A stretch of 34,619 nucleotides of DNA from an uncultured Clostridia bacterium (GTDB lineage: Bacteria > Bacillota > Clostridia > Christensenellales > Aristaeellaceae), in NCBI GenBank assembly GCA_944362695.1, contig CALVTQ010000124.1, forward strand, positions 1 to 34,619, given 5' to 3'. The notes beneath the pieces were generated by a model. That model searched no databases, was not told where the DNA came from, and worked only from the letters and a program-made list of their open reading frames with translations. The translations under genes and the position numbers were made by a program. Shown here in pieces: positions 4,945 to 14,313 of this stretch. Each line of letters starts with the position of its first letter. Within the stretch, counting starts at the first letter, position 1.

Positions 4945-4981
4945 AAAAAAAGCGATGCGCAGAAGCTCGTCCGCGCATCGC
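4945..4981 (-). terminator. Intrinsic terminator of the nine-gene nif-like/hyd operon
   Basis: Perfect 9-bp stem GCGATGCGC/GCGCATCGC (4973-4981 with 4952-4960), 12-nt loop, then seven T on the minus strand (4945-4951), starting 16 nt after the hydF stop. It closes the operon cleanly before the MATE promoter. Confidence 0.95.
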
Positions 4982-4997
4982 GTGTGTTATGGGGAAA

Positions 4998-6197
4998 TTA
5001 TTCGTCCAGCAGTTTGAGCATATCCGGGAACGGCGCAAGGCTGCGGCGCAGGATGCCGTGCATGTGCGCGATGGCGACGCCGTAATTGACGATCGGGATG
5101 CCCGATTCGCGCGCGTGGGCGATGCGCCATTTCATCTCCTTTTCGTTGAGCATGCAGCCGCCGCAGTGGACGCAGAGCTTGTAGCCCGACAGATCCTGCG
5201 GGAATTCGCCGCCGGAAGTGAAGCCGTACTGCGGCTTTGCGCCGGTGAATTTTTCAATCCACGCGGGCATCTTGATGGTGCCGATGTCGCCGCACTGACG
5301 GTGATGCGTGCAGCCCTCGGAGATCAGCACGCGGTCGCCGTCCTTGAGGTGGAAAAGCGCAGCCGCGCCGCGCACCAGCTCGGAAAGATCGCCCTTATAG
5401 CGGGCGAAGAGGATGGAAAACGACGTGAGCGTGATGTCGTCGGGGGTATCTTTGCTGACGCGCTCAAACGCCTGCGAATCCGTGATGACGAGCTTGGGCT
5501 TTTTCGCCAGACACTTGAGCGTCGCGGCCAGCTCGGTATCCTGACAGCAGACCGCCGTGCAGTTCGCATCGAGGATGTCGCGCAGGGTCTGTTGCTGCGG
5601 CAGAATCACGCGGCCCTTGGGCGCGGCGGCGTCGATCGGGATGACGAGCACGACGAGGTCGCCCGGCTCGAGCAGATCGCTCACGATGCGCTTGGTGCTC
5701 TCCACCGGCTTGGCGAGGCGGCCCAGCGTCTCCTTGAGCTCGTGGATGCCCTCGCCGGTCTTCGCGCTGACGGCCAGACCGCCCTCGCAGAGCGTGAAGC
5801 CCGGCAGGTCGGCCTTGTTGCAGGCCACCACGTAGGGAATCTGCCTCTCCCTGAACAGGGCGATGAGCTGGCGGTCGGTGTCCGACAGGCCCGCTGTGCC
5901 GTCCACGACGAGCACGGCGACGCCGGTCTGCGCGAGGATGCGCCGCGCCTTTTGGACGCGCAGCTCGCCGAGGTCGCCCTCGTCGTCCATGCCGGGCGTG
6001 TCGATGATGACGACCGGGCCGATGGGCAGAATCTCCATCGCCTTTTTGACGGGGTCGGTTGTCGTGCCCTTCACATCGGATACGACGGCGAGCTCCTGCC
6101 CGGTGACGGCGTTGACGACGCTGGATTTTCCGGCGTTGCGGATGCCGAAAAAGCCGATGGAAACGCGCTCAGAGGAAGGGGTTTGATTCAGAGACAT
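4998..6197 (-). CDS. hydF: [FeFe]-hydrogenase H-cluster maturation GTPase HydF
   Basis: HydF is a GTPase and iron-sulfur scaffold that carries the 2Fe subcluster precursor built by HydE/HydG and delivers it to the hydrogenase. The 399-residue protein shows the GTPase motifs GIRNAGKSS (P-loop, 18-26), DTPG (66-69) and NKAD (127-130), a middle dimerisation region, and the C-terminal cluster signature CTH (C296, H298) about 45 residues before HCGGC (C345, C348), which is the HydF-defining C-x-H ... H-C-x2-C pattern. Length matches the family. The start at 6197 has AAAGGAGG upstream. It is the last gene of the operon, 57 nt after the binding-protein gene. HydG and a hydrogenase are not in this window, so either they lie elsewhere or HydF serves the nitrogenase-like proteins here. 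Confidence 0.95.
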   Translation of the reverse strand: MSLNQTPSSERVSIGFFGIRNAGKSSVVNAVTGQELAVVSDVKGTTTDPVKKAMEILPIGPVVIIDTPGMDDEGDLGELRVQKARRILAQTGVAVLVVDGTAGLSDTDRQLIALFRERQIPYVVACNKADLPGFTLCEGGLAVSAKTGEGIHELKETLGRLAKPVESTKRIVSDLLEPGDLVVLVIPIDAAAPKGRVILPQQQTLRDILDANCTAVCCQDTELAATLKCLAKKPKLVITDSQAFERVSKDTPDDITLTSFSILFARYKGDLSELVRGAAALFHLKDGDRVLISEGCTHHRQCGDIGTIKMPAWIEKFTGAKPQYGFTSGGEFPQDLSGYKLCVHCGGCMLNEKEMKWRIAHARESGIPIVNYGVAIAHMHGILRRSLAPFPDMLKLLDE

Positions 6198-6254
6198 GGT
6201 GGTGGCCTCCTTTGATGATCCCGCCGGAACGCAGCGCCCCGGCGGGGAATTGAC

Positions 6255-7352
6255 TTAATCGAGATTGATATCGCCGACAATCGCGGGCGGGTTGAAGATC
6301 GAGGAAGCCTGCTCCTCGGTCAGCTCCACGCCGAACACGTCGCGGTAGTATTCAACCGTCTTGGCGGCGATGTCGATATCGGCGAACAGCTCGGGATACG
6401 CGGCCTTCGCCAGCCACAGCAGCGTGATCGGGGTGTCCGCGCCTGGGGTGTAGCTGCGGTACATGCCCAGCGGCATCTTGTGGACGTTGCCGTTGGCGAC
6501 GGCGTCGACGGCGCTCCAGTCGTCGTTGCCCACGGCGTTATTCATCAGGTCCTCGGGCTTGACGGTGTTGAAGTTGGTGATGAAGATGATGGACGGGTTC
6601 CAGGCGTAGACCTGCTCCATGTTGACGGTCACGGCGTTGTCGGCGGTGATCTCCTCGGCGACGTTCTTGCAGCCGATGGCGTTGGCCCACCAGTGGCCGA
6701 AGAAGCTGGAGCCGGAGGTCTGGAGCATCGTGTCGTTGTAGGTGAAGATGAAGAACGCGCGCTGACGCTCCTCGTCGGGGATATTCGCCACGCGCTCCTG
6801 CACGAGGTTATAGGCCTCCTCGGAATACTTGGCGACCAGCTCGGTCTTGTCGTTGTCCGGGAAGATCTCACTGAGCAGCGAGATCCAGTTGTTCAGCGTC
6901 TCGATGGTGTTGTATTCCCACTTGTTGACGGAAATCGCGACGGCGGCAAAGCCCGCGTTGGTGAGCGTCTTGCCCAGCTCCGGGTTGCTGGCGGAGTAGA
7001 ACACGACGTCCGGCTCGAGCTTCATGAGCTCCTCGGCGTTGACCGACGCGCCCTGCATGAAGGTCGTGTTGGCGTTCAGAATCTCCGGGTAGATCTGGCC
7101 GAGCAGACCGTTCGCGGCGGCGGCCATCGAGTTGGGCGACATGCCCTTGATGATCTCGGCGGAGTCGAAGAACACGGTGAGGACGGACGGCAGCGGCAGG
7201 ATGTCGGTGACGACGACGCTGTCGATCTCATTGGGGACGGCCACCACGTTGCCCGCGTGGTCGGTCACATCGTGCGTCGCGCCCTCGGCGAAGGCCGAAA
7301 CGGCGAGGCACAGGCAGAGGATGAGGGTGATGAGGGTCGCAAACTTTTTCAT
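6255..7352 (-). CDS. Periplasmic-binding-type solute receptor of ABC importer (FecB/BtuF class)
   Basis: This 365-residue extracytoplasmic receptor (Peripl_BP_2 type) should capture an iron complex, heme, corrinoid or similar ligand and deliver it to the FecCD-type permease encoded at 12807-13826. The sequence shows a signal peptide (MKKFAT, hydrophobic stretch, AFA before EG), then the class-III layout with NAEELMKLEPDVVF at the end of lobe 1, a long linking helix, and VYAWNPSIIFI in lobe 2. The start at 7352 is preceded by GGAG; the upstream in-frame GTG overlaps that site. There is no lipobox cysteine after the signal peptide, unusual for a Gram-positive receptor. The position between the nitrogenase-like genes and hydF ties transport to the reductase. 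Confidence 0.88.
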   Translation of the reverse strand: MKKFATLITLILCLCLAVSAFAEGATHDVTDHAGNVVAVPNEIDSVVVTDILPLPSVLTVFFDSAEIIKGMSPNSMAAAANGLLGQIYPEILNANTTFMQGASVNAEELMKLEPDVVFYSASNPELGKTLTNAGFAAVAISVNKWEYNTIETLNNWISLLSEIFPDNDKTELVAKYSEEAYNLVQERVANIPDEERQRAFFIFTYNDTMLQTSGSSFFGHWWANAIGCKNVAEEITADNAVTVNMEQVYAWNPSIIFITNFNTVKPEDLMNNAVGNDDWSAVDAVANGNVHKMPLGMYRSYTPGADTPITLLWLAKAAYPELFADIDIAAKTVEYYRDVFGVELTEEQASSIFNPPAIVGDINLD

Positions 7353-7385
7353 GTCAGGCACTCCTTTTATGTTAAAGTTTTTCCC

Positions 7386-7406
7386 GGGCTTGCGCTTGGC
7401 AAACCC
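7386..7406 (-). other. Intra-operon hairpin before the binding-protein gene
   Basis: The minus-strand RNA has an 8-bp stem (7399-7406 with 7386-7393, one G-U pair) and 5-nt loop within the 116-nt gap before the receptor gene. No T-tract follows, so it is not a clear terminator. Hairpins at this place often protect the 5' end of a processed mRNA and let the binding protein be made in excess; that role is inference. Confidence 0.45.
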
Positions 7407-7468
7407 ATATCGTAAAGCGCTTGCGCATCGCCGGGCAGCTTTGCGTCAGCGGTTTACTTCATATGAAA

Positions 7469-8602
7469 TTACAGCTGCGAAAGGATGGCGTCGATGCCCG
7501 CGGCGGGGTCGATGATCTCGCTGCGCCAGAGCCTGCCGCTGCACGCCTCGTGCGCGTTGTGGATGAACTTGGCGCCTTTGGGCGCGATGGGCGCGAACAT
7601 CGGGTCGGCGATGACCACCTTCGCACCGTCCAGCGCGGCGATGACGTCGTCCTCCCACGGGGCGTACACGTCGCCCGGGCGCAGGATGTCCTCGTTCACG
7701 GAGGAAATGACGCGGCAATCGCGGCCCGTCGCAAGCGCAATCGCCTCGGCCAGTGCGATGGAGCGCACGTTTTCGCCGATGATGGCGATGTCGCCCGTGC
7801 CCGCGTGCGCCGCGCACAGACCGTCCCTGCGCGTCCTCGCGGTCTCGCAGAGCAGGTCGGCCAGCGCGTCGGCGTAAGGCCCGGCGACAGGCGTGCCGAT
7901 GACATAGGGGATGCCCAGCTCGGCCTGCATCCACTTCGCGGCGGCAAGACCGCAGGCGGAGACGACGAGGTTGACGTGCGCCGCGCCCGCGTTCACGAGT
8001 TCGTCAAACGTGCAGCCCATCGAGAAATTCGCATTGACGGCAAAGCCCGCGCGCTCGCAGAAGCGGACGACGGATTCGGCCTCGCCTTTGATGGAAAAAT
8101 CCAGCGGCGTCATGCCGACGATGTTGACCGACGGCGCATCCGTTTTCGCGGCGTCGCGCTTGACGAATTTCTCGCAGAACATCTTATACGCGCGCGACGC
8201 GCCGAGGACGTAGCTGTTCATGCCGGTGGTCGTGACGCCGAGCGCGGGGATGCCGGTCTCGCCCTCGATCATGGCGGCGCATGCGGCGTAGTCAAAGCCC
8301 GTCATCGCGGGGATGGGCGTACCGGCGACGGCGACGAAGCGCGGATGCAGCTCGCGCGCGGCGTCGGCGATGTCGGAAACGAGCTTGCTGTCCTCGCCCA
8401 TGATGGCTTCCATCTCGGATATGCCGCTGATGTAGACCATGGCGTCCATGTCCATCCAGCGCGGCTCGTCGTGCGTGGTGTAGGTCGAATTGCAGCCGGA
8501 GGCGTCGTGCATGACGACCATGCCGCCCAGCTCAAAGAGCGCCGAGCAGACGCCGAACACGTCCGCCGAGTAGGTCGAAATGATGCCGGAAGTCTGTCTC
8601 AT
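7469..8602 (-). CDS. Nitrogenase component-1-like subunit (NifK/NifE-type), second subunit
   Basis: This 377-residue protein belongs to the oxidoreductase/nitrogenase component 1 superfamily (NifD/K/E/N, BchN/B/Y/Z, CfbD). Near its N terminus it has VCSALFELGG ... DASGCNS (C19, C37), the two-cysteine pattern that in NifDK and NifEN helps bind a cluster at the subunit interface. Then come the Rossmann-like repeats of the family. The third family cysteine (TC before an I/T-G-D/E segment) is replaced by GTPIPAMTGFD. The protein is much shorter than NifK (about 500). The start at 8602 overlaps the upstream stop as ATGA; an upstream extension of the frame would lie inside the previous gene. It should pair with the 437-residue protein and accept electrons from the NifH-like protein. 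The substrate is unknown. Confidence 0.85.
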   Translation of the reverse strand: MRQTSGIISTYSADVFGVCSALFELGGMVVMHDASGCNSTYTTHDEPRWMDMDAMVYISGISEMEAIMGEDSKLVSDIADAARELHPRFVAVAGTPIPAMTGFDYAACAAMIEGETGIPALGVTTTGMNSYVLGASRAYKMFCEKFVKRDAAKTDAPSVNIVGMTPLDFSIKGEAESVVRFCERAGFAVNANFSMGCTFDELVNAGAAHVNLVVSACGLAAAKWMQAELGIPYVIGTPVAGPYADALADLLCETARTRRDGLCAAHAGTGDIAIIGENVRSIALAEAIALATGRDCRVISSVNEDILRPGDVYAPWEDDVIAALDGAKVVIADPMFAPIAPKGAKFIHNAHEACSGRLWRSEIIDPAAGIDAILSQL

Positions 8603-9912
8603 ACGCAGGAACACCCCATTCCCTTGATCGCGACCAGCTCGCGCATCGGCTTCGCATTTTCGTGCGCATCGAGCATGAGGCTGCACAGCGACAGAATCGC
8701 CTCATAGCCCCAGTGACCGCCGCCCTCGACCTCGTTGACGAAGTGGTCCGTGCCGCAGAAATACGCGGCCTTCTGGCCCACGGCGAGGCACGGCATCTCA
8801 CTGACGGCGAAGCGCATCGCGGCGTGCGCCGTCGGGTGAATCGTGATGTCGGCGTTGGCCGCGCGCAGGGCGTCGTAATCGCCGCGCTCAAAGCCGGTGA
8901 AGCTGTCGGCGTACACGCGCGTCACATGCAGACCGGCCTCGTGCAGAAGCCGCGCCGCGCCGAGCACGCGCGGGCAGTAGGTGTAATCGACCGTCACGTC
9001 CTCGGTGATGACCTCGCGCAGCTTCGCCAGCGCCGCGTCGCACGCATCGCGCATGGGCTTGGTGTCGGGCATGTCGCAGCCGAGCAGGTCGGCGAGCTTT
9101 CGCAGGTTCGCGTCGATCTCGTCGTAATCGAGCGTATACGGGATGTGGATGTGCGTGCCGCCGATGCGCTGCGCCAACGCCTCGCCGCCGGGGATGGCGC
9201 TGGGGTAGGTCGTGATGTAAATCGACGCCTCGCCGAGCTGCTGATAGTCCTCATACGTTTTGCAGCGCTGAATCTCGAGCAGGCGATAGCCCGCGCCGCG
9301 GATCATCTTGGCAAGCTCGCTGTCCTCGTTCAGCTCGAAATCGCTGCCCAGAATCGCGACGCACTTGGGGTCCTTTTCGCGCGGGCGGATCAGGCTGTAG
9401 AGCTGGCGGCGCATGAGCTGATCGGGCGTCAGGCCGCTCTTGCGCATGATGGGGTTCATATAGCAATCGGTAAAGTCGATGTGCGGGAAGCGGGCGCGCA
9501 GCTCGCGGTAGCACACGTCGAGGTCGCAGCCGGTGAAGTGATGCACGCAGCTCGTGTAGACCAGCACGGCGCGCGGGGTGTAGGGCAGCTTGCGGATGAC
9601 GTCGCTCACGCCCTCGATGATCAAATCCTCCATGTCGCCGTCGAGCAGGTTGTTTTCCTTGACCTCAACGGTGGAAAAGCGATGGCTCGCGCCCATCTCG
9701 GCGGCTGTGAGCACCACGCCGCGCAGACAACCGGCGGCGCAGACAAAGATCTCGTGCGCCTCGGGCATGAGCATGCCGACGTGGGCGATATTCCACGTGC
9801 CGCGCGCGGGCGCGGCGTATTCAAGGCCCGACGCGAACGGCGCGGGGAAGGCCGCGTCCTTCAAATGCACGTGAACGTTCGTGCGCGGGCTTTCGTTGAC
9901 TCGTTTGAGCAT
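8599..9912 (-). CDS. Nitrogenase component-1-like subunit (NifD-type), first subunit
   Basis: This 437-residue component-1 homologue starts at 9912, one nucleotide after the NifH-like stop, with GGAGGG upstream. Cysteines are concentrated in the N-terminal third: VCAAGC (C58, C62), TSCVHHFTGC (C122, C129) and C134. These are candidate ligands for an interface iron-sulfur cluster together with C19/C37 of the partner. The remaining sequence has the repeated beta-alpha domains of the family (AILGSDFE, IYITTYPSAIPGG, THIHIPYTLD). The N-terminal region holds several His residues (HVHLKD, H44). It is not NifD: it is shorter and lacks recognisable FeMo-co ligand context. The C-terminal Cys pair (GCSCV at the very end) is unusual. 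It is translationally coupled on both sides, so a stoichiometric complex is likely. Confidence 0.85.
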   Translation of the reverse strand: MLKRVNESPRTNVHVHLKDAAFPAPFASGLEYAAPARGTWNIAHVGMLMPEAHEIFVCAAGCLRGVVLTAAEMGASHRFSTVEVKENNLLDGDMEDLIIEGVSDVIRKLPYTPRAVLVYTSCVHHFTGCDLDVCYRELRARFPHIDFTDCYMNPIMRKSGLTPDQLMRRQLYSLIRPREKDPKCVAILGSDFELNEDSELAKMIRGAGYRLLEIQRCKTYEDYQQLGEASIYITTYPSAIPGGEALAQRIGGTHIHIPYTLDYDEIDANLRKLADLLGCDMPDTKPMRDACDAALAKLREVITEDVTVDYTYCPRVLGAARLLHEAGLHVTRVYADSFTGFERGDYDALRAANADITIHPTAHAAMRFAVSEMPCLAVGQKAAYFCGTDHFVNEVEGGGHWGYEAILSLCSLMLDAHENAKPMRELVAIKGMGCSCV

Positions 9913-9913
9913 G

Positions 9914-10666
9914 TTACCCTCCGCAGATGTCGATCAGGGTTCTGGCGAGCGCGCGGTACTCCTGCGCCTGCTCGCTGTCGGGGAACGCCTCCACGACCGT
10001 CTTGCCGAGCTCCTCGGCCTCGGTCACAAGGTCGCAGCGGCTGATCGTGCCCACGACGCTCGTGCCCATGTCGCTCGCCAGCTCGGCGGTTTTCTCGTCC
10101 TCGTTTTTGACGTTGCGGCGGTTTAAGATAATGCCGCCCAGCGCCGCATAGCCGCGATTGCCGAAGCTGTTGACGGCGGTCGCAATGTTGGCCGCGGCGT
10201 AAATCGCCATGTTCTCGCCGGAGGTGATGACAAACACCTTGTCGGCGTAGCCCGCGCGCATGGGCATCGAGAAGCCGCCGCAGACGACGTCGCCCAGCAC
10301 GTCATAGAGCACCACATCGGGCTTGTAGGCCTCGTACGCGCCCTTTTCCCTGAGCTTTTCCAGCGCCGCGATGATGCCGCGCCCGGCGCAGCCCAGACCC
10401 GGCGTCGGGCCGCCCGCCTCCACGCAGATGACGCCCTTGTAGCCCTGCACGACCATGTCCGAAAGGGAAAAGTCCTTCTTCTCGCGCACGAGGTCGAGCA
10501 CAGCCGGGATGCGCGTGCCGCCGTGCAGCGAGACGGTCGAGTCCGCCTTCGGGTCGCAGCCGATCTGCATCACGCGAAGGCCCATATCCGCCATGGCCGC
10601 GGCGACATTGGAAACCGTCGTGGATTTGCCGATGCCGCCCTTGCCGTAAACCGCAATCTTAATCAT
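9914..10666 (-). CDS. Nitrogenase iron protein (NifH)-like ATP-dependent reductase
   Basis: The 250-residue protein is a strikingly well conserved Fe protein: P-loop GKGGIGKST (8-16), switch I CDPKADST (37-44), GCAGRGI with cluster ligand C93 and R96 (equivalent to the NifH arginine that is ADP-ribosylated in some species), and switch [18 protein letters not shown] with ligand C129. Such homodimers hold one [4Fe-4S] cluster and couple ATP hydrolysis to low-potential electron transfer to a component-1 partner, here presumably the two downstream products. It is slightly shorter than NifH (270-295), mainly at the C terminus. The start at 10666 has GAGG upstream. It follows hydE by 18 nt. Equally close relatives include CfbC, BchL/ChlL and the methylthioalkane-reductase Fe protein; which group it joins needs a tree. 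Confidence 0.93.
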
Positions 10667-10684
10667 ATGAACACCTCACTTGGC

Positions 10685-11740
10685 TTACACTTTTTGATAA
10701 TCGCCGCGCCCGACGATCACGCTGTATCCGATTTCCTCCATCTGGCCGCGCAGAAGCTCGATGCCCTGCCTGGCGGTCAGCTCGGTGCCGGATTTGTTGT
10801 TGTAGAGCATGTATTTTTTGCGCACATCCGCCGGGCTCAAATTCGGCATGACGACGTTGCAGCCCGCCAGCACGCCGAGCTTGCGCCCGTCCGCCTGCGC
10901 CGTGCCAAGCGCCGTCGTCGAGGGCAGCAAAACGCGCGGGAGCATGATGCGGATCAGGCTGATCAGAAGCAGCGTCAGCTCCACCGAACCGGCCTTTTCG
11001 TCCCGGAACGGCGTGTCGCTGTGCGGGATGAACGGGCCGACGCCGACCATCTCGGGGTCAAGATCCGCCATGAAGATCATGTCGCGCGCGAGGTGCTCGG
11101 GTTTCTGATACGGCGAGCCGACCATCATGCCCGCGCCGGTCTGGTAGCCCAAATCCTTGAGGTCGCGCAGGCAGCGCATGCGGTTCTCGAGCGTCTGATA
11201 CGGGGGATGCAGCTTGGCGTAGTGCTCGCAGTCCGCCGCCTCGTGGCGCAGGAGGAACCTGTCCGCGCCCGCCCCGCGAAGCAGCGCATACGATTCGCGC
11301 GAGCGTTCGCCGATGGAGAGCGTCACCGCGCAGTCGGGATACGCCGCCTTGATCTTGTGAATCATGCCCACAAAGCGCTCGTCGGTGAACGCCGGGTCCT
11401 CGCCGCCCTGAAGGACGAACGTGCGGAAGCCGCTCTCGTAGCCCTTCTCGCAGCAGCGCAGAATGTCCTCGTCGGTCAGGCGGTAGCGGGAGAGCTTGGC
11501 GTTGCCGCCGCGTATGCCGCAGTAGTAGCAGTTGTTCTTGCAATAGTTGGAAAACTCGACGATGCCGCGGAAGAAGATGTTCTTGCCGAAGCCGGAAATC
11601 GCGATGCCCTGCGCGAGCGCCCGTGCGTATTCGCGGTCATCCGGGGTGTAGGTCGATATGATCTGCACCCACTCGGCCTCGGTGAGCCTCTTTTCAGCAT
11701 TGAGCTTGTCGATCAATTGGATGTTCGTCATGGCGATCAT
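10685..11740 (-). CDS. hydE: [FeFe]-hydrogenase H-cluster radical SAM maturase HydE
   Basis: HydE is a radical S-adenosylmethionine enzyme that processes the iron-CO-CN synthon made by HydG during assembly of the 2Fe subcluster. The 351-residue protein has the radical SAM motif C67-x3-C71-x2-C74 within NYCKNNCYYCGIRGGN, the family-typical FVLQGGEDP, GADRFLLRHEAA and GCNVVMPNLSP segments, and normal HydE length (about 350). The start at 11740 overlaps the ATPase stop as ATGA. It sits directly before the nifH-like gene rather than beside hydG/hydF as in ordinary hyd operons. Either it serves a hydrogenase encoded elsewhere, or this HydE branch makes or modifies a centre for the nitrogenase-like complex. 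The sequence closely follows HydE rather than BioB or PylB. Confidence 0.92.
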   Translation of the reverse strand: MIAMTNIQLIDKLNAEKRLTEAEWVQIISTYTPDDREYARALAQGIAISGFGKNIFFRGIVEFSNYCKNNCYYCGIRGGNAKLSRYRLTDEDILRCCEKGYESGFRTFVLQGGEDPAFTDERFVGMIHKIKAAYPDCAVTLSIGERSRESYALLRGAGADRFLLRHEAADCEHYAKLHPPYQTLENRMRCLRDLKDLGYQTGAGMMVGSPYQKPEHLARDMIFMADLDPEMVGVGPFIPHSDTPFRDEKAGSVELTLLLISLIRIMLPRVLLPSTTALGTAQADGRKLGVLAGCNVVMPNLSPADVRKKYMLYNNKSGTELTARQGIELLRGQMEEIGYSVIVGRGDYQKV

Positions 11741-12810
11741 TCTTTCTCTTTGCCGTTTTCTTTGCCGTATAGGGTCTTGACGCTCACGTCCGGCAGGATG
11801 GCGAGCCTGTGCGTCAGCTCCGCGATGCGCGCCTCGTCGCCGTCGAACGTCGTGTGGATGATGAACATGCCGCGCTTGCGGTAGGGCATACCCATGCGGC
11901 CGACGATGATGTCGTTGTATTCGTGCAGAAGTTCGTTGATCTTCGTCGATGTGTCAAAGTCATTGAAGATGATCGTGATCGAGGCGAGCGTGTCGTGGGG
12001 ATTGGCCTCGCCCGCTGCGTGTTCGCCGCTTGACAGGTGGAGCGGGATGACGTTCTGCACGACGGACTCGCGCGTCTCGATTTCGCCGATGACGGCCTTG
12101 ACGCCGAACGCGCGCTCGATGTTCTCCTCGGTGAGAATCCGGGCCGTCGGGCCGAACACAGCGTGTCCGTCCGCCAGAATCAGCGCCTTGTCCGAACGCT
12201 GCAAGGCGTGCTCGGGGTAGTGCGTGTTGAATATGCAGGCGATGCCGGATTGCGCGAGGCGGCTCATGGTGTCCAGCACGATCAGCTGGTTGCGGAAATC
12301 GAGGTTGCTCTCCGGCTCGTCGAGAATCAGCACCTCGGGATCGGAGACGAGCGCGCGGGCGATGAGCACCATCTGGTATTCGCCGCCGCTGATCTCGGAG
12401 CAGCGCTTGTCGCGCAGCTTGATGACGCCGAGCGTCTCGAGCGTGTGCTCGGCGCGCTCGATGTCCTCACGGGTCGGCTGGGCGAATACCCCGATGCGGC
12501 TGGAGCGGCCCAGCAAAACCGCCTCGAGCGCCGTATACGAGCTGGGCGAGGATTTCGCCTGCGGCACGTAGGACAGGCGGCTCCACAGGCGCTTTTCGGG
12601 GATGCTGCGGATGTTCTCGCCGTCAAGTAAGCTCGCGCCGCTCGTCCATTTGAGCATGCCGGTGATGCAGCGAAGCAGCGTCGTCTTGCCCGCACCGTTG
12701 GGGCCTAAAATGGCGAGGAAGTCGCCGGAATTGACCGAAAAATTGATGTCGGTGAACACGTTGTGCTTATGGTTATAGCTGAACGTGCCATGTTCAACGG
12801 AAAGATTCAC
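11737..12810 (-). CDS. ABC importer ATPase with C-terminal TM1266-like domain
   Basis: The 357-residue protein has two parts. Residues 1-255 are a FecE/BtuD-type ATPase: Walker A GPNGAGKT (36-43), Q-loop Q84, signature ISGGEYQ (140-146), Walker B LILDEP (161-166), switch His197. Residues about 275-350 form a small alpha/beta domain homologous to the protein encoded at 13823-14080; both share I-x-GRMG-x-PYR and the same strand order. That domain is the ACT-like TM1266 family, annotated as iron-only hydrogenase system regulator. The start is GTG at 12810, chosen because GGAGG precedes it and it overlaps the permease stop as GTGA; the longer frame upstream is antisense-like sequence within the permease. 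The fusion suggests that ligand sensing by the small domain gates transport or that the ATPase carries its own regulator. Confidence 0.9.
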   Translation of the reverse strand: MNLSVEHGTFSYNHKHNVFTDINFSVNSGDFLAILGPNGAGKTTLLRCITGMLKWTSGASLLDGENIRSIPEKRLWSRLSYVPQAKSSPSSYTALEAVLLGRSSRIGVFAQPTREDIERAEHTLETLGVIKLRDKRCSEISGGEYQMVLIARALVSDPEVLILDEPESNLDFRNQLIVLDTMSRLAQSGIACIFNTHYPEHALQRSDKALILADGHAVFGPTARILTEENIERAFGVKAVIGEIETRESVVQNVIPLHLSSGEHAAGEANPHDTLASITIIFNDFDTSTKINELLHEYNDIIVGRMGMPYRKRGMFIIHTTFDGDEARIAELTHRLAILPDVSVKTLYGKENGKEKE

Positions 12811-13826
12811 AGCCGCCAACCTCCCGACCTGCGCATGAGCGTGATGAAGAAGGGCGCGCCGATGATCGCCGTGAGGATGGAGATGGGGATCTCCGCAGCC
12901 GTGGCCGCGCGCGCCACGGTGTCCACGATGACCATGAAGCCCGCGCCGATGGAGATGCTCGCCGGGACGAGCGAGAGGTGGTTGCTGCCGAACATCATGC
13001 GGCACACGTGCGGCACGAGCAGTCCGACCCAGCCGACCTGACCGCACATGGACACGCAGCTCGCCGTCATCATCGTCGCTGCAACGATGGTCGTGCCGCG
13101 CAGGGCCGCGATGTTCATGCCGGAGGAGCGGATCTCGTCCTCGGTCAGCGGCAGCAGGTTCATGCGCCAGCGGATGAGGAACAGCACCACGCAGCCCACC
13201 AGAACCGGCGGCGCGCCGTACACGAGATTGTCATAGCCCGTGCCCTCGAGGCTGCCCATCAGCCAATACGTGATGGCCGGGAGCTGCGTCTCCGAATCCG
13301 CCGTGAACTTGACCAGCGACACCAGCGCCGAAAACAGCGAGCCGATCATGATGCCCGAAAGGACGATGGAGCTCAGGCCCTTGCCCTTGCCGGAACCGGC
13401 GATGTACGTGAGCGCCACGGCGATGGCGCCGAAGAGGAAGCTCGTCGTCTGGATGCCGATGAAGCCGAAGCCCAGCAGGATGCCCAGCGCCGCGCCGAAG
13501 CACGAGCCGCTCGCCACGCCCAGCGTGTCCGGCGTCGCCAGAGGATTCGCAAACAGCGACTGGAACGCGCAGCCGGAGAGCGACAGGCCCGCGCCGGTCA
13601 AAAGTGCGAGCAGGATGCGCGGCAGGCGGACGTTGAAGACCGTCATCATGACCGTCTTGGGGACGTCGCCCTCGCCGGTGATCTTCTGCATCACGGCGGC
13701 GATGAGCTGGCCCGGCTCGATTTGCATGCGGCCCATGCCCAGCGTCGCGCACGCGGCGGCGATGGGGAAGACGATCAGCAGCGCGATGGCCAGAGGCGGC
13801 AGCTTGCCGCTTGCGCCGCGCCTCAT
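12807..13826 (-). CDS. FecCD/BtuC-type ABC importer permease
   Basis: This 339-residue integral membrane protein should form the homodimeric channel of a type II importer for iron-siderophore, heme, cobalamin or a related metal complex. It shows the family signatures RLPRILLALLTGAGLSLSG followed by FANPLATPDTLGVASG, GQVGWVGLLVPH near residue 260, and the C-terminal EIPISILTAIIGAPFFITLM. About ten membrane segments are visible. The start at 13826 overlaps the upstream stop as ATGA, and the ATPase start overlaps its own stop. With the ATPase (11737-12810) and the receptor (6255-7352) the importer is complete within the operon. Confidence 0.92.
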   Translation of the reverse strand: MRRGASGKLPPLAIALLIVFPIAAACATLGMGRMQIEPGQLIAAVMQKITGEGDVPKTVMMTVFNVRLPRILLALLTGAGLSLSGCAFQSLFANPLATPDTLGVASGSCFGAALGILLGFGFIGIQTTSFLFGAIAVALTYIAGSGKGKGLSSIVLSGIMIGSLFSALVSLVKFTADSETQLPAITYWLMGSLEGTGYDNLVYGAPPVLVGCVVLFLIRWRMNLLPLTEDEIRSSGMNIAALRGTTIVAATMMTASCVSMCGQVGWVGLLVPHVCRMMFGSNHLSLVPASISIGAGFMVIVDTVARAATAAEIPISILTAIIGAPFFITLMRRSGGWRL

Positions 13827-14080
13827 GCCTTTGTGACGACGTTGGAGTACGCCGTCTTGGCCGTGACGCCCGGGAGCTTGCCGATCTTGCCGGAGAGCGT
13901 GGAGATGGCGTCCTGCGGCGCGTCGATGGCGATGGAGATGATGTTGATGTTCTTCTCGCGATAGGGGATGCCCATGCGGCCGATGATGTACTGGCCGTAC
14001 TGATGCAGCAGGTCGTTCATCGCCTGCACGGACTCGGGCTTCTCGATGATGATGCTGATGACGGCAACGCGCGTATCCAT
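13823..14080 (-). CDS. TM1266-family small protein (iron-only hydrogenase system regulator)
   Basis: The 85-residue protein is a single ACT-like alpha/beta domain with the segment IIGRMGIPYREKNINIISI. Proteins of this family are found beside hydE/hydF/hydG in many Clostridia and Thermotoga and are named putative regulators by context; no mechanism is established to my knowledge. The start at 14080 has AAGGAGG upstream; the longer frame above it runs through the leader and is not credible. It is the first gene of the operon, about 200 nt after the promoter. A second copy of the domain is fused to the ATPase two genes downstream. It has no DNA-binding helix, so any regulation is more likely allosteric or through protein contacts. 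Confidence 0.85.
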   Translation of the reverse strand: MDTRVAVISIIIEKPESVQAMNDLLHQYGQYIIGRMGIPYREKNINIISIAIDAPQDAISTLSGKIGKLPGVTAKTAYSNVVTKA

Positions 14081-14278
14081 GATTGGCCTCCTTGCAATAC
14101 AAAACGGGCTGCGTCCGCGAAAGACACAGCCCGATAAACACATCAAATGCACATACGCAAAGGCGCGTATGTCTATATGAAAGGACGGCTCGGCGCGAGG
14201 ACGCTTCCCGGCGCAAAGGCTTCCCGTGTTTGTGATTCGCTGGTCTTTCGCCGCAATGCATATTTTGGCGTCAGATTT
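14081..14278 (-). promoter_or_regulatory. Structured 5' leader of the nif-like/hyd operon (unknown class)
   Basis: The RNA from the predicted start near 14278 to the first codon is about 198 nt and has three ordered elements: a long-range stem (CGGCGAAAG at 14253-14245 with CTTTGCGCCG at 14218-14209, one bulge), a perfect 8-bp hairpin at 14151-14172, and the terminator-like hairpin at 14105-14133 just before the ribosome site. CGGGAAGC occurs twice (14219-14226 and 14203-14210), once within the loop of the first stem and once just after it. This is the architecture of a transcription attenuator or riboswitch. I could not match it to cobalamin, Moco, c-di-GMP, THF or NiCo consensus motifs from memory. 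Confidence 0.45.
14101..14133 (-). terminator. Attenuator-like hairpin before the first gene
   Basis: An 11-bp stem (14123-14133 with 14105-14115, one G-U pair) with a 7-nt loop is followed by TTTT, and lies about 20 nt upstream of the start codon. The T-run is short, so termination may be partial or conditional. Confidence 0.6.
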
Positions 14279-14284
14279 GCTCAC

Positions 14285-14313
14285 ATGATAGCATATGAAT
14301 TACAGCTTGTCAA
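14285..14313 (-). promoter_or_regulatory. Sigma-70-type promoter of the nif-like/hyd operon
   Basis: The minus strand has a perfect TTGACA (14308-14313), 17-nt spacer and TATCAT (14285-14290). The predicted start is near 14278. No other credible promoter lies between here and the first gene, so the nine genes are probably co-transcribed from it. Confidence 0.85.

Follow-up and report, generated by a model that had tools for sequence, protein, structure and literature searches.

A clostridial operon of nitrogenase-like, hydrogenase maturation, and importer genes, and its possible part in H-cluster assembly without HydG

Genes and signals of the operon

We analyzed a 34,619-nucleotide (nt) stretch of DNA from an uncultured Clostridia bacterium (contig CALVTQ010000124.1; hereafter, the window), which carries a minus-strand run of nine genes encoding a NifHDK-like reductase, the hydrogenase maturation proteins HydE and HydF, and a FecBCD-type importer. 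A previous reading made from the letters alone (i.e., the sequence-only reading) had given the gene order as TM1266, permease, ATPase::TM1266, hydE, nifHDK-like, receptor, and hydF. Open reading frame (ORF) and profile searches of the window returned exactly this order and confirmed every gene. The features of the operon, all on the minus strand, are the following:

14285..14313, minus: sigma-70-type promoter-like site, TTGACA-17-TATCAT (11 of 12 matches, consensus scan only)
14235..14275, minus: core hairpin of the leader RNA, YCU-GA-CRCC...GGYG-AA-AGR (40.3 bits with a covariance model of which the window is one of the rows)
14105..14133, minus: terminator-like hairpin of the leader, a putative attenuator (12-pair stem then TTTT, consensus scan)
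13823..14080, minus: TM1266-family protein, 85 amino acids (aa) (TIGR03959, 119 bits, cut-off 61; PF21699 over cut-off)
12807..13826, minus: FecCD-type permease, 339 aa (PF01032, 264 bits)
11737..12810, minus: ATP-binding cassette (ABC) ATPase with a C-terminal TM1266 domain, 357 aa (PF00005 and PF21699)
10685..11740, minus: HydE radical S-adenosylmethionine (SAM) maturase, 351 aa, with CxxxCxxC (TIGR03956, 518 bits, cut-off 255)
9914..10666, minus: NifH-like reductase (set 1), 250 aa, cluster ligands C93 and C129 (PF00142)
8599..9912, minus: NifD-like subunit (set 1), 437 aa (PF00148)
7469..8602, minus: NifK-like subunit (set 1), 377 aa (PF00148)
6255..7352, minus: substrate-binding protein (receptor) of the importer (PF01497, Peripla_BP_2; start chosen by ribosome-binding site)
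4998..6197, minus: HydF GTPase scaffold, 399 aa (TIGR03918, 546 bits, cut-off 326; PF18128 and PF18133)
4952..4981, minus: operon terminator (12-pair stem then T-run, consensus scan)

The junctions are as tight as had been described: ATGA or GTGA overlaps join TM1266/FecC, FecC/ATPase, ATPase/HydE, and NifD/NifK, and the gaps measure 18 nt (HydE/NifH), 1 nt (NifH/NifD), 116 nt (NifK/receptor), and 57 nt (receptor/HydF). The description of the run as having one promoter and one terminator held for the promoter-like site and the terminator at its end, but a second terminator-like hairpin (14133-14105) lies in the leader, before the first gene. HydE, HydF, and TM1266 of the window all pass their curated NCBIfam cut-offs, the importer is complete (i.e., receptor, permease, and ATPase stand together in the operon), and the operon itself holds no Hyp gene. 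Since the same gene order recurs in many other genomes, it is beyond chance, and it is certain that both the operon and its family exist.

Two features of the importer deserve mention. The TM1266 domain occurs twice, once free as the first gene and once fused C-terminally to the importer ATPase, so that a regulator family is built into a transporter; in 59 of 68 loci, the match extends to this C-terminal domain of the ATPase. In addition, the receptor of the window does not have the N-terminal (lipobox-like) cysteine that 64 of the 66 aligned rows carry.

The module and its NifHDK-like proteins across genomes

When the species-genome collection was scanned with the NifD-like protein of the window, 147 relatives were found, of which we kept 80 (73 to 50% identical in the best segment). 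The neighborhood survey that the sequence-only reading had asked for thus finds relatives of the operon in these 80 loci, and the operon is not unique to the window genome. Nearly all hosts are clostridial, mostly metagenome-assembled genomes (MAGs) from the rumen or gut (Lachnospiraceae, Oscillospiraceae, Mogibacterium, Ruminococcus, and others), and they also include Clostridium luticellarii, C. thailandense, Intestinibacter bartlettii, and one genome labelled Actinomycetaceae.

Neighborhoods were counted in the 56 loci whose sequence extends 5 kb or more before nifD and 3 kb or more after it. TM1266 was present in 54 of them, the permease, ATPase, and receptor in 50 each, HydE in 18, and HydF in 14. 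Because of these counts, we define the core of the module as NifHDK, the importer, and TM1266, with HydE and HydF being members in a minority of loci. The nine genes had been presented as a unit, and the recurrence of NifHDK with the importer bears this out in part, but HydE and HydF are mostly found elsewhere and there is an alternative core, consisting of two NifHDK sets and HypCDEF. The proposal that one pathway joins these genes is supported by the steady company of the three importer genes with NifHDK and by one leader RNA that precedes several versions of the module (see below). Clustering of 1341 ORFs from the 80 loci revealed no further conserved neighbor family that reaches beyond 16 loci. 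Another conserved neighbor acting as a HydG substitute was rejected on this ground; the families found in 10 to 16 of the 80 loci lie in the flanks of some groups or are antisense frames. A family of CobW/HypB/UreG-type GTPases flanks 10 of the 80 loci (L036, 4432-5106, and kin).

The alternative core was found in C. luticellarii (L083), C. thailandense (L082), their relatives G448, G450, G452, G455, G460, and G464, and one Eubacterium MAG (L062). Here, set 1 is accompanied by another NifHDK-like set (set 2) and by HypF-HypC-HypD-HypE, the Hyp genes being placed between or beside the two sets. HypF, HypC, HypD, and HypE of L083 score 766, 71, 386, and 419 bits, respectively, all over cut-off, and no FecC match was found within the stretches read of these Clostridium-type clusters. 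The run in G452 also holds TM1266, HydF, and HydE, and that in G455 holds TM1266 and HydE; in these same two genomes, a single reading frame encodes both NifH and NifD of set 1 as a fusion (L184, 10712-12805, in G452, and L183, 10677-12794, in G455). Among the 56 loci, 50 have the importer, 2 have Hyp and set 2 (L062 and L082), 4 have neither (L036, L043, L058, and L063), and none has both. Since the importer and Hyp with set 2 never occur together, the natural reading is that the importer takes the place of the front half of the pathway, and it is the Clostridium version that explains the chemistry of the pathway best.

We compared the NifHDK-like proteins with the characterized families of the nitrogenase superfamily, whose features they display (i.e., component-1 fold, PF00148, PF00142, and the cysteines that ligate the Fe-protein [4Fe-4S] cluster). 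The NifH-like protein scores below cut-off for both NifH (326.5 bits, cut-off 394.35) and CfbC (330 of 402 bits), as does the comparison with CfbD (21.5 of 268 bits). The same applies to dark-operative protochlorophyllide oxidoreductase (DPOR) and chlorophyllide oxidoreductase, with 197 of 345 bits for BchL, 20 of 425 for BchY, and 53 of 490 for BchB, and the NifD/K-like proteins fall far under the cut-offs of every named component-1 family matched. In a NifH tree of 49 chosen rows, which included three nitrogenase NifH, two BchL, and one MarH but no CfbC row, set 1 (25 rows) forms a single clade (100/100), to which G031/G054 and the long-branched G219 are most closely related (88/81). Set 2 is a separate clade (99/99, 9 rows), and a type from a Sporomusa plasmid is a third. 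None of the nitrogenase NifH and BchL rows groups with set 1, set 2, or the Sporomusa type, and MarH stands apart from set 1, as judged from one long MarH row only. The tree placement thus sets the family apart from the nitrogenase and BchL rows and, tentatively, from the single MarH row, and the comparison with CfbCD was made by profile score only.

The Sporomusa type comes from plasmid pSPTER of Sporomusa termitida (L191, 7949-15273), where a receptor, two permeases, and an ATPase accompany NifH (67% identical), NifD, and NifK. More NifH-like genes lie near Fec-type transporters in other families of the order (L155, L162, L163, L164, and L165), with no Hyd gene within the stretches read.

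Among the conserved residues, C93 and C129 of the NifH-like protein (the [4Fe-4S] ligands) are kept in 86 of 88 rows and C37 of the NifK-like protein in 84 of 84. An alignment of 87 rows revealed invariant Cys and His residues in the NifD-like protein, with C58, C62, C122, and C150 present in all 87 and a C-terminal CxC in 83. Profile alignments place C122 opposite a NifE cysteine, which we take as a P-cluster ligand site, and they place a non-cysteine residue, in both the NifD-like and NifK-like proteins, at the equivalent of alpha C275, presumably the position of the FeMo-type cofactor cysteine ligand. Single-chain AlphaFold2 models of the NifD-like and NifK-like proteins (predicted local distance difference test scores of 84 and 85, respectively) resemble component-1 folds (TM-scores normalized by query length, about 0.5 to 0.7). 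In the likely layout, one DPOR-type cluster would sit at the subunit interface, with an open cavity to accommodate a bound substrate.

HydG absence and a conserved leader RNA

We searched 57 genomes with relatives of the NifD-like protein for hydrogenase maturation genes, i.e., 7 from the order draw described below and 50 of the 80 loci, which were of our own choosing (G136 and G401 are the same genome). HydG was found over cut-off in 7 of the 57 genomes (4 of the 50 from set-1 loci), HydF in 55 (48 of the 50), and an [FeFe]-hydrogenase domain in all 57 (50 of the 50). Incomplete genomes can be rejected as the cause of the missing HydG for the set-1 loci as a group, because HydF and the hydrogenase domain are present in nearly all of the same genomes; for single genomes, incompleteness may apply. 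All three H-cluster motifs are kept in each of the 30 hydrogenase loci fetched, 24 of which come from HydG-less genomes.

The window genome (G000; 2.93 Mb, 83% complete) encodes HydE, HydF, and a hydrogenase, with a HydA that carries the three H-cluster motifs at locus L140, and the NifDK pair of the operon accounts for its sole PF00148 matches. No HydG over cut-off was found by profile search in this 83% complete genome. Its top HydG match (L003), considered as a divergent HydG, is ThiH (505 bits, cut-off 380). The weak HydG matches fetched from 20 other genomes are likewise not divergent HydG proteins, all 20 being close to the HydE of the window; nine further genomes, with matches of 117 to 217 bits, lie outside this comparison. 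Apart from the seven HydG-positive genomes, few of the 57 have a HydG-profile match above 100 bits, and most have none.

The same association can be viewed from the side of HydG. For a Clostridium sample, we centered on C. luticellarii, which was picked for carrying the set, and added 77 relatives; HydF is present in 68 of these genomes and HydG in 60. A NifD-like protein occurs in 7 of the 8 genomes with HydF but without HydG, versus 1 of the 60 with both (G460) and 0 of the 10 without HydF (Fisher p 6.5e-8, kinship ignored). Without C. luticellarii itself, the first of these figures becomes 6 of 7, and the one such genome with no NifD-like protein is G462. An even draw of 396 genomes from the order of the window contained HydF in 59 and HydG in 51. 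Strong NifD-like matches were found in 4 of 10 genomes with HydF but without HydG versus 3 of 49 with both (p 0.012), and PF00148 proteins over cut-off in 5 of 10 versus 4 of 49. The four strong matches comprise set 1 (the window genome and G136), set 2 (G049, which has set 2 only), and distant kin (G219). As a gauge of assembly loss, 2 of the 51 HydG-positive genomes of this draw lack HydF. TM1266-HydE-HydF operons were also seen in HydG-less genomes at L149, L152, L157, and L187.

A candidate regulatory RNA accompanies the module. Between the promoter and TM1266 lies a hairpin of 41 positions, which the minimum free energy fold also yields, and 8 of its 10 pairs show compensatory changes over 30 distinct rows. 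In these rows, 87.8% of cells pair (72.5% when shuffled), both sides have changed in 48 cells (19 when shuffled), and the covariation score is 0.44 (0.20 when shuffled). Two of the five covariation measures (pairs with both-side change and further pair types) are not clearly above shuffles. The covariance model gave 40 matches with E < 0.001 in 38 of 81 sources (1.39 Mb), 32 of the matches being its own rows, and four matches in 50 further sources, one being the genome of a training row. Together, these searches placed the leader at 11 new sites, some of them near-copies of training rows, before TM1266, between TM1266 and FecC, or before HydE/HydF.

In many HydG-less genomes, the leader RNA precedes TM1266, FecC, or HydE, and in G407, it precedes a HydE located away from the NifHDK cluster. 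A search of 20 stretches before HydG or HydF (18 upstream of HydG in HydG-positive genomes of the order, and 2 upstream of HydF, in G412 and G445) gave one weak match (14.2 bits, E 0.08), and the region upstream of HydG in L097 scored only 15.2 bits (E 0.86). The window leader has no Rfam match at E 5, and that of L024 has only sub-threshold matches to L10_leader, PyrR, and S15; the leader would be a new class of regulatory RNA. Of 70 leaders, 33 contain a terminator-like hairpin in the last 300 nt upstream of TM1266, versus 1.2 expected from mononucleotide shuffling, and such a hairpin follows the leader core in 36 of 44 places. In 28 of these 36, the 3' part of the core pairs with the 5' arm of the terminator above shuffles, and it might act as an antiterminator. 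In L066, L074, L080, and L093, the core instead lies 41 to 44 nt before the start codon, where, by our reading, it overlaps the ribosome-binding site.

A possible HydG-independent route and its alternatives

In the known pathway, HydG makes the CO and CN ligands from tyrosine (PMC9431212). Among eight Clostridium acetogens surveyed in 2022, all had HydE and HydF and three had a typical HydG, and HypC-D-E-F without HypA/HypB was reported for five species of the C. ljungdahlii group (PMC9431212). For the missing HydG, the parts of that survey covered here give no straightforward explanation and offer an atypical radical-SAM HydG or the use of free CO and cyanide. In [NiFe]-hydrogenase maturation, HypEF use carbamoyl phosphate to make cyanide, and HypCD serve as iron carriers (PMC12130793); a 2025 review calls the source of the CO, and the enzyme that makes it in the absence of oxygen, unanswered (PMC12134894).

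The sequence-only reading had proposed either the import and reduction or remodeling of a metal complex or tetrapyrrole or, as a second option, a new organometallic center for the NifDK-like complex, and had stated that no system with this combination was described. Compared with a new center, an ordinary H-cluster made without HydG fits better: since an [FeFe]-hydrogenase domain occurs in 57 of 57 genomes and HydG is absent over cut-off from 50 of them, we regard H-cluster assembly without HydG as the best reading. On balance, we think that the operon serves HydG-independent H-cluster assembly in HydG-poor organisms. The statement that no such system was described was too strong. Dos Santos et al. 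2012 (PMC3464626) had noted, in one sentence, that Coprococcus catus and other Firmicutes have NifHEN-like proteins next to those for hydrogenase maturation, which might help to assemble an active-site metallocluster, and that other NifHEN-like proteins adjoin ABC transporters; the parts of that paper covered here demonstrate no function for them. The C. catus genes, which we compared by description, resemble set 1 in adjoining maturation genes, in occurring as two linked copies, and in part of their Cys pattern, and probably belong to the same wider family, but HydG loss, HypCDEF, importer replacement, and a leader RNA do not appear in those parts. Nif operons with transporters are also noted in the D. 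hafniense genome paper (PMC3306737, in the parts covered). A literature search, mostly outside subscription journals, found no paper linking NifHDK-like genes to missing HydG, and the passages found on C. autoethanogenum transposon data (PMC9004356) do not discuss these genes.

We further postulate, as a bold and tentative inference drawn from genes and sequences, that CO or the Fe(CO)2CN unit is a product of the NifDK-like complex. This complex would be reduced through one Fe-S cluster, at the former P-cluster site, by the NifH-like protein, which would use ATP and ferredoxin. Because the FeMo-type cofactor cysteine ligand is gone, the NifDK-like complex would act on a bound iron complex. In place of HydG, which works from tyrosine, it would either supply CO or convert an Fe-cyanide/carbonyl precursor into the Fe(CO)2CN unit, passing the product on to HydE and HydF. 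In Clostridium, the precursor would be assembled by HypEF, which provide cyanide derived from carbamoyl phosphate, by HypCD as the iron scaffold, and by set 2; the species of rumen and gut, which have the importer instead of these genes, would import an iron complex. The leader RNA might tune the operon, possibly to a pathway intermediate.

In its most far-reaching form, which we offer with equal reserve, this could be a third natural route to Fe-CO-CN units. An ATP/ferredoxin-driven nitrogenase-like complex would generate the CO ligand (e.g., from CO2 or a formyl donor) or remodel Fe(CN)2CO of the Hyp type to yield the H-cluster precursor Fe(CO)2CN. Gut bacteria that have lost the front half would take up an organometallic iron complex produced by other microbes, and a riboswitch-like leader of a new class would sense the pathway product. 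We know of no H-cluster pathway that uses a nitrogenase-like complex; the gene association itself had been noted before. Two questions become testable now, namely, why several clostridial acetogens have an [FeFe]-hydrogenase, HydE, and HydF but no typical HydG, and where the CO ligand of hydrogenases originates in the absence of oxygen. If a nitrogenase-like complex does supply CO, nitrogenase chemistry would be tied to the active sites of hydrogenases in one pathway, and many clostridia of the rumen and gut would depend for their H2 metabolism on a hitherto undescribed cofactor route, perhaps on a shared organometallic nutrient.

Three known systems help to place the proposed route. Like the canonical HydE-HydF-HydG pathway, the window has HydE, HydF, and TM1266 over curated cut-offs, and the target [FeFe]-hydrogenase is present, but 46 of the 50 set-1 genomes have no HydG over cut-off and carry the NifHDK-like set with the importer or HypCDEF instead. 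The Clostridium versions share HypF, HypC, HypD, and HypE with Fe(CN)2CO assembly for [NiFe]-hydrogenase, including a C-terminal PRIC in HypE of L083 that corresponds to the motif named in PMC12130793, but their Hyp genes lie beside two NifHDK-like sets, and HypA/HypB were not found in the five species of the C. ljungdahlii group (PMC9431212, in the parts covered). Finally, DPOR (BchLNB), CfbCD, and MarHDK have the NifH-type ATPase and component-1 fold in common with set 1, whereas set 1 has its own NifH clade, apart from the BchL and NifH rows and tentatively from the single MarH row (in a tree with no CfbC row), has other neighbors, and lacks the FeMo-type Cys ligand.

Several observations weigh against HydG-independent assembly by this module. 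In the order draw, only 4 of the 10 genomes with HydF but without HydG have a clear NifD-like match, and only two of these are set 1 itself. Five of the others (G161, G240, G274, G340, and G391; 85, 69, 94, 97, and 91% complete, respectively) have no PF00148 protein over cut-off, with G161 showing a single weak partial NifD match (E 5.5e-4), and G274, G161, and, from the Clostridium sample, G462 retain TM1266-HydE-HydF without HydG and without set 1. Some such genomes are expected from incomplete assemblies, or set 1 could be not always needed. Conversely, set 1 occurs together with HydG in five genomes (G396, G412, G440, G445, and G460), and its distant kin do so in G031, G054, and G094. On a HydF tree of 120 of the 127 HydF-positive genomes (G478, G496, G509, G134, G187, G367, and G393 omitted), an average of 2.6 out of 6 independent pairs had HydG loss and NifD-like presence in agreement and none had them opposed, but this kinship-aware test is not significant and independent events are few. 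On the Sporomusa termitida plasmid, the related NifHDK and FecBCD cluster has an AraC regulator and TonB siderophore receptors as neighbors, and the 25 kb read contain no Hyd gene. From the literature, PMC9431212 proposes an atypical radical-SAM protein as HydG for the acetogens without a typical one, and assigns to each species one [NiFe]-hydrogenase, a possible user of the Hyp genes. The case as a whole is drawn from sequences and structure models.

Among the alternatives, iron acquisition has the most in its favor, although we consider it unlikely: FecBCD would import an iron chelate, and the NifHDK-like complex would reduce it, releasing iron for Fe-S proteins, including hydrogenases. Fec-type transporter genes do adjoin several other NifH-like clades, and the siderophore receptors and AraC regulator on the Sporomusa plasmid fit this idea. 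However, the Clostridium set-1 clusters read hold HypCDEF and no importer, and iron release leaves unexplained both the absence of HydG and the sharing of operon and leader RNA with HydE and HydF.

A second alternative, in which HydE and HydF build an organometallic center for the NifDK-like enzyme itself, a new catalyst acting on a small molecule, seems improbable. The tight linkage of all parts in the window and the invariant Cys and His of the NifD-like protein are consistent with it, but HydE and HydF lie outside most clusters (being in 18 and 14 of 56), every genome searched has an [FeFe]-hydrogenase domain, and the FeMo-type Cys aligns with a non-cysteine in both subunits. We assign just as low a probability to a tetrapyrrole or corrinoid reductase with a BtuFCD-type importer, merely co-regulated with hydrogenase maturation. 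BtuC is the best named match of the permease, though far under cut-off, DPOR and CfbCD are reductases of the same superfamily, and CobW/HypB-type GTPases stand near 10 of the 80 clusters; against this, the scores are far under the BchY, BchB, and CfbD cut-offs, no tetrapyrrole-synthesis gene was identified among the shared neighbors of the 80 loci, and the HypCDEF linkage indicates Fe-CO-CN chemistry.

It seems similarly improbable that chance and kinship account for the pattern (i.e., that HydG was lost, or is replaced by an atypical form or by trace CO/CN, in a few clades that carry NifHDK by coincidence), an account favored by the small number of independent events, by the ~1% activation reported with HydF made with HydE but without HydG, and by the atypical HydG proposed for some acetogens (both PMC9431212), but opposed by the contrast of 7/8 versus 1/60 in the Clostridium relatives with the same trend in the other order (4/10 versus 3/49), by the lack of a further HydG-profile match above 100 bits in most of the 57 genomes, and by the link of operon and leader RNA to HydE.

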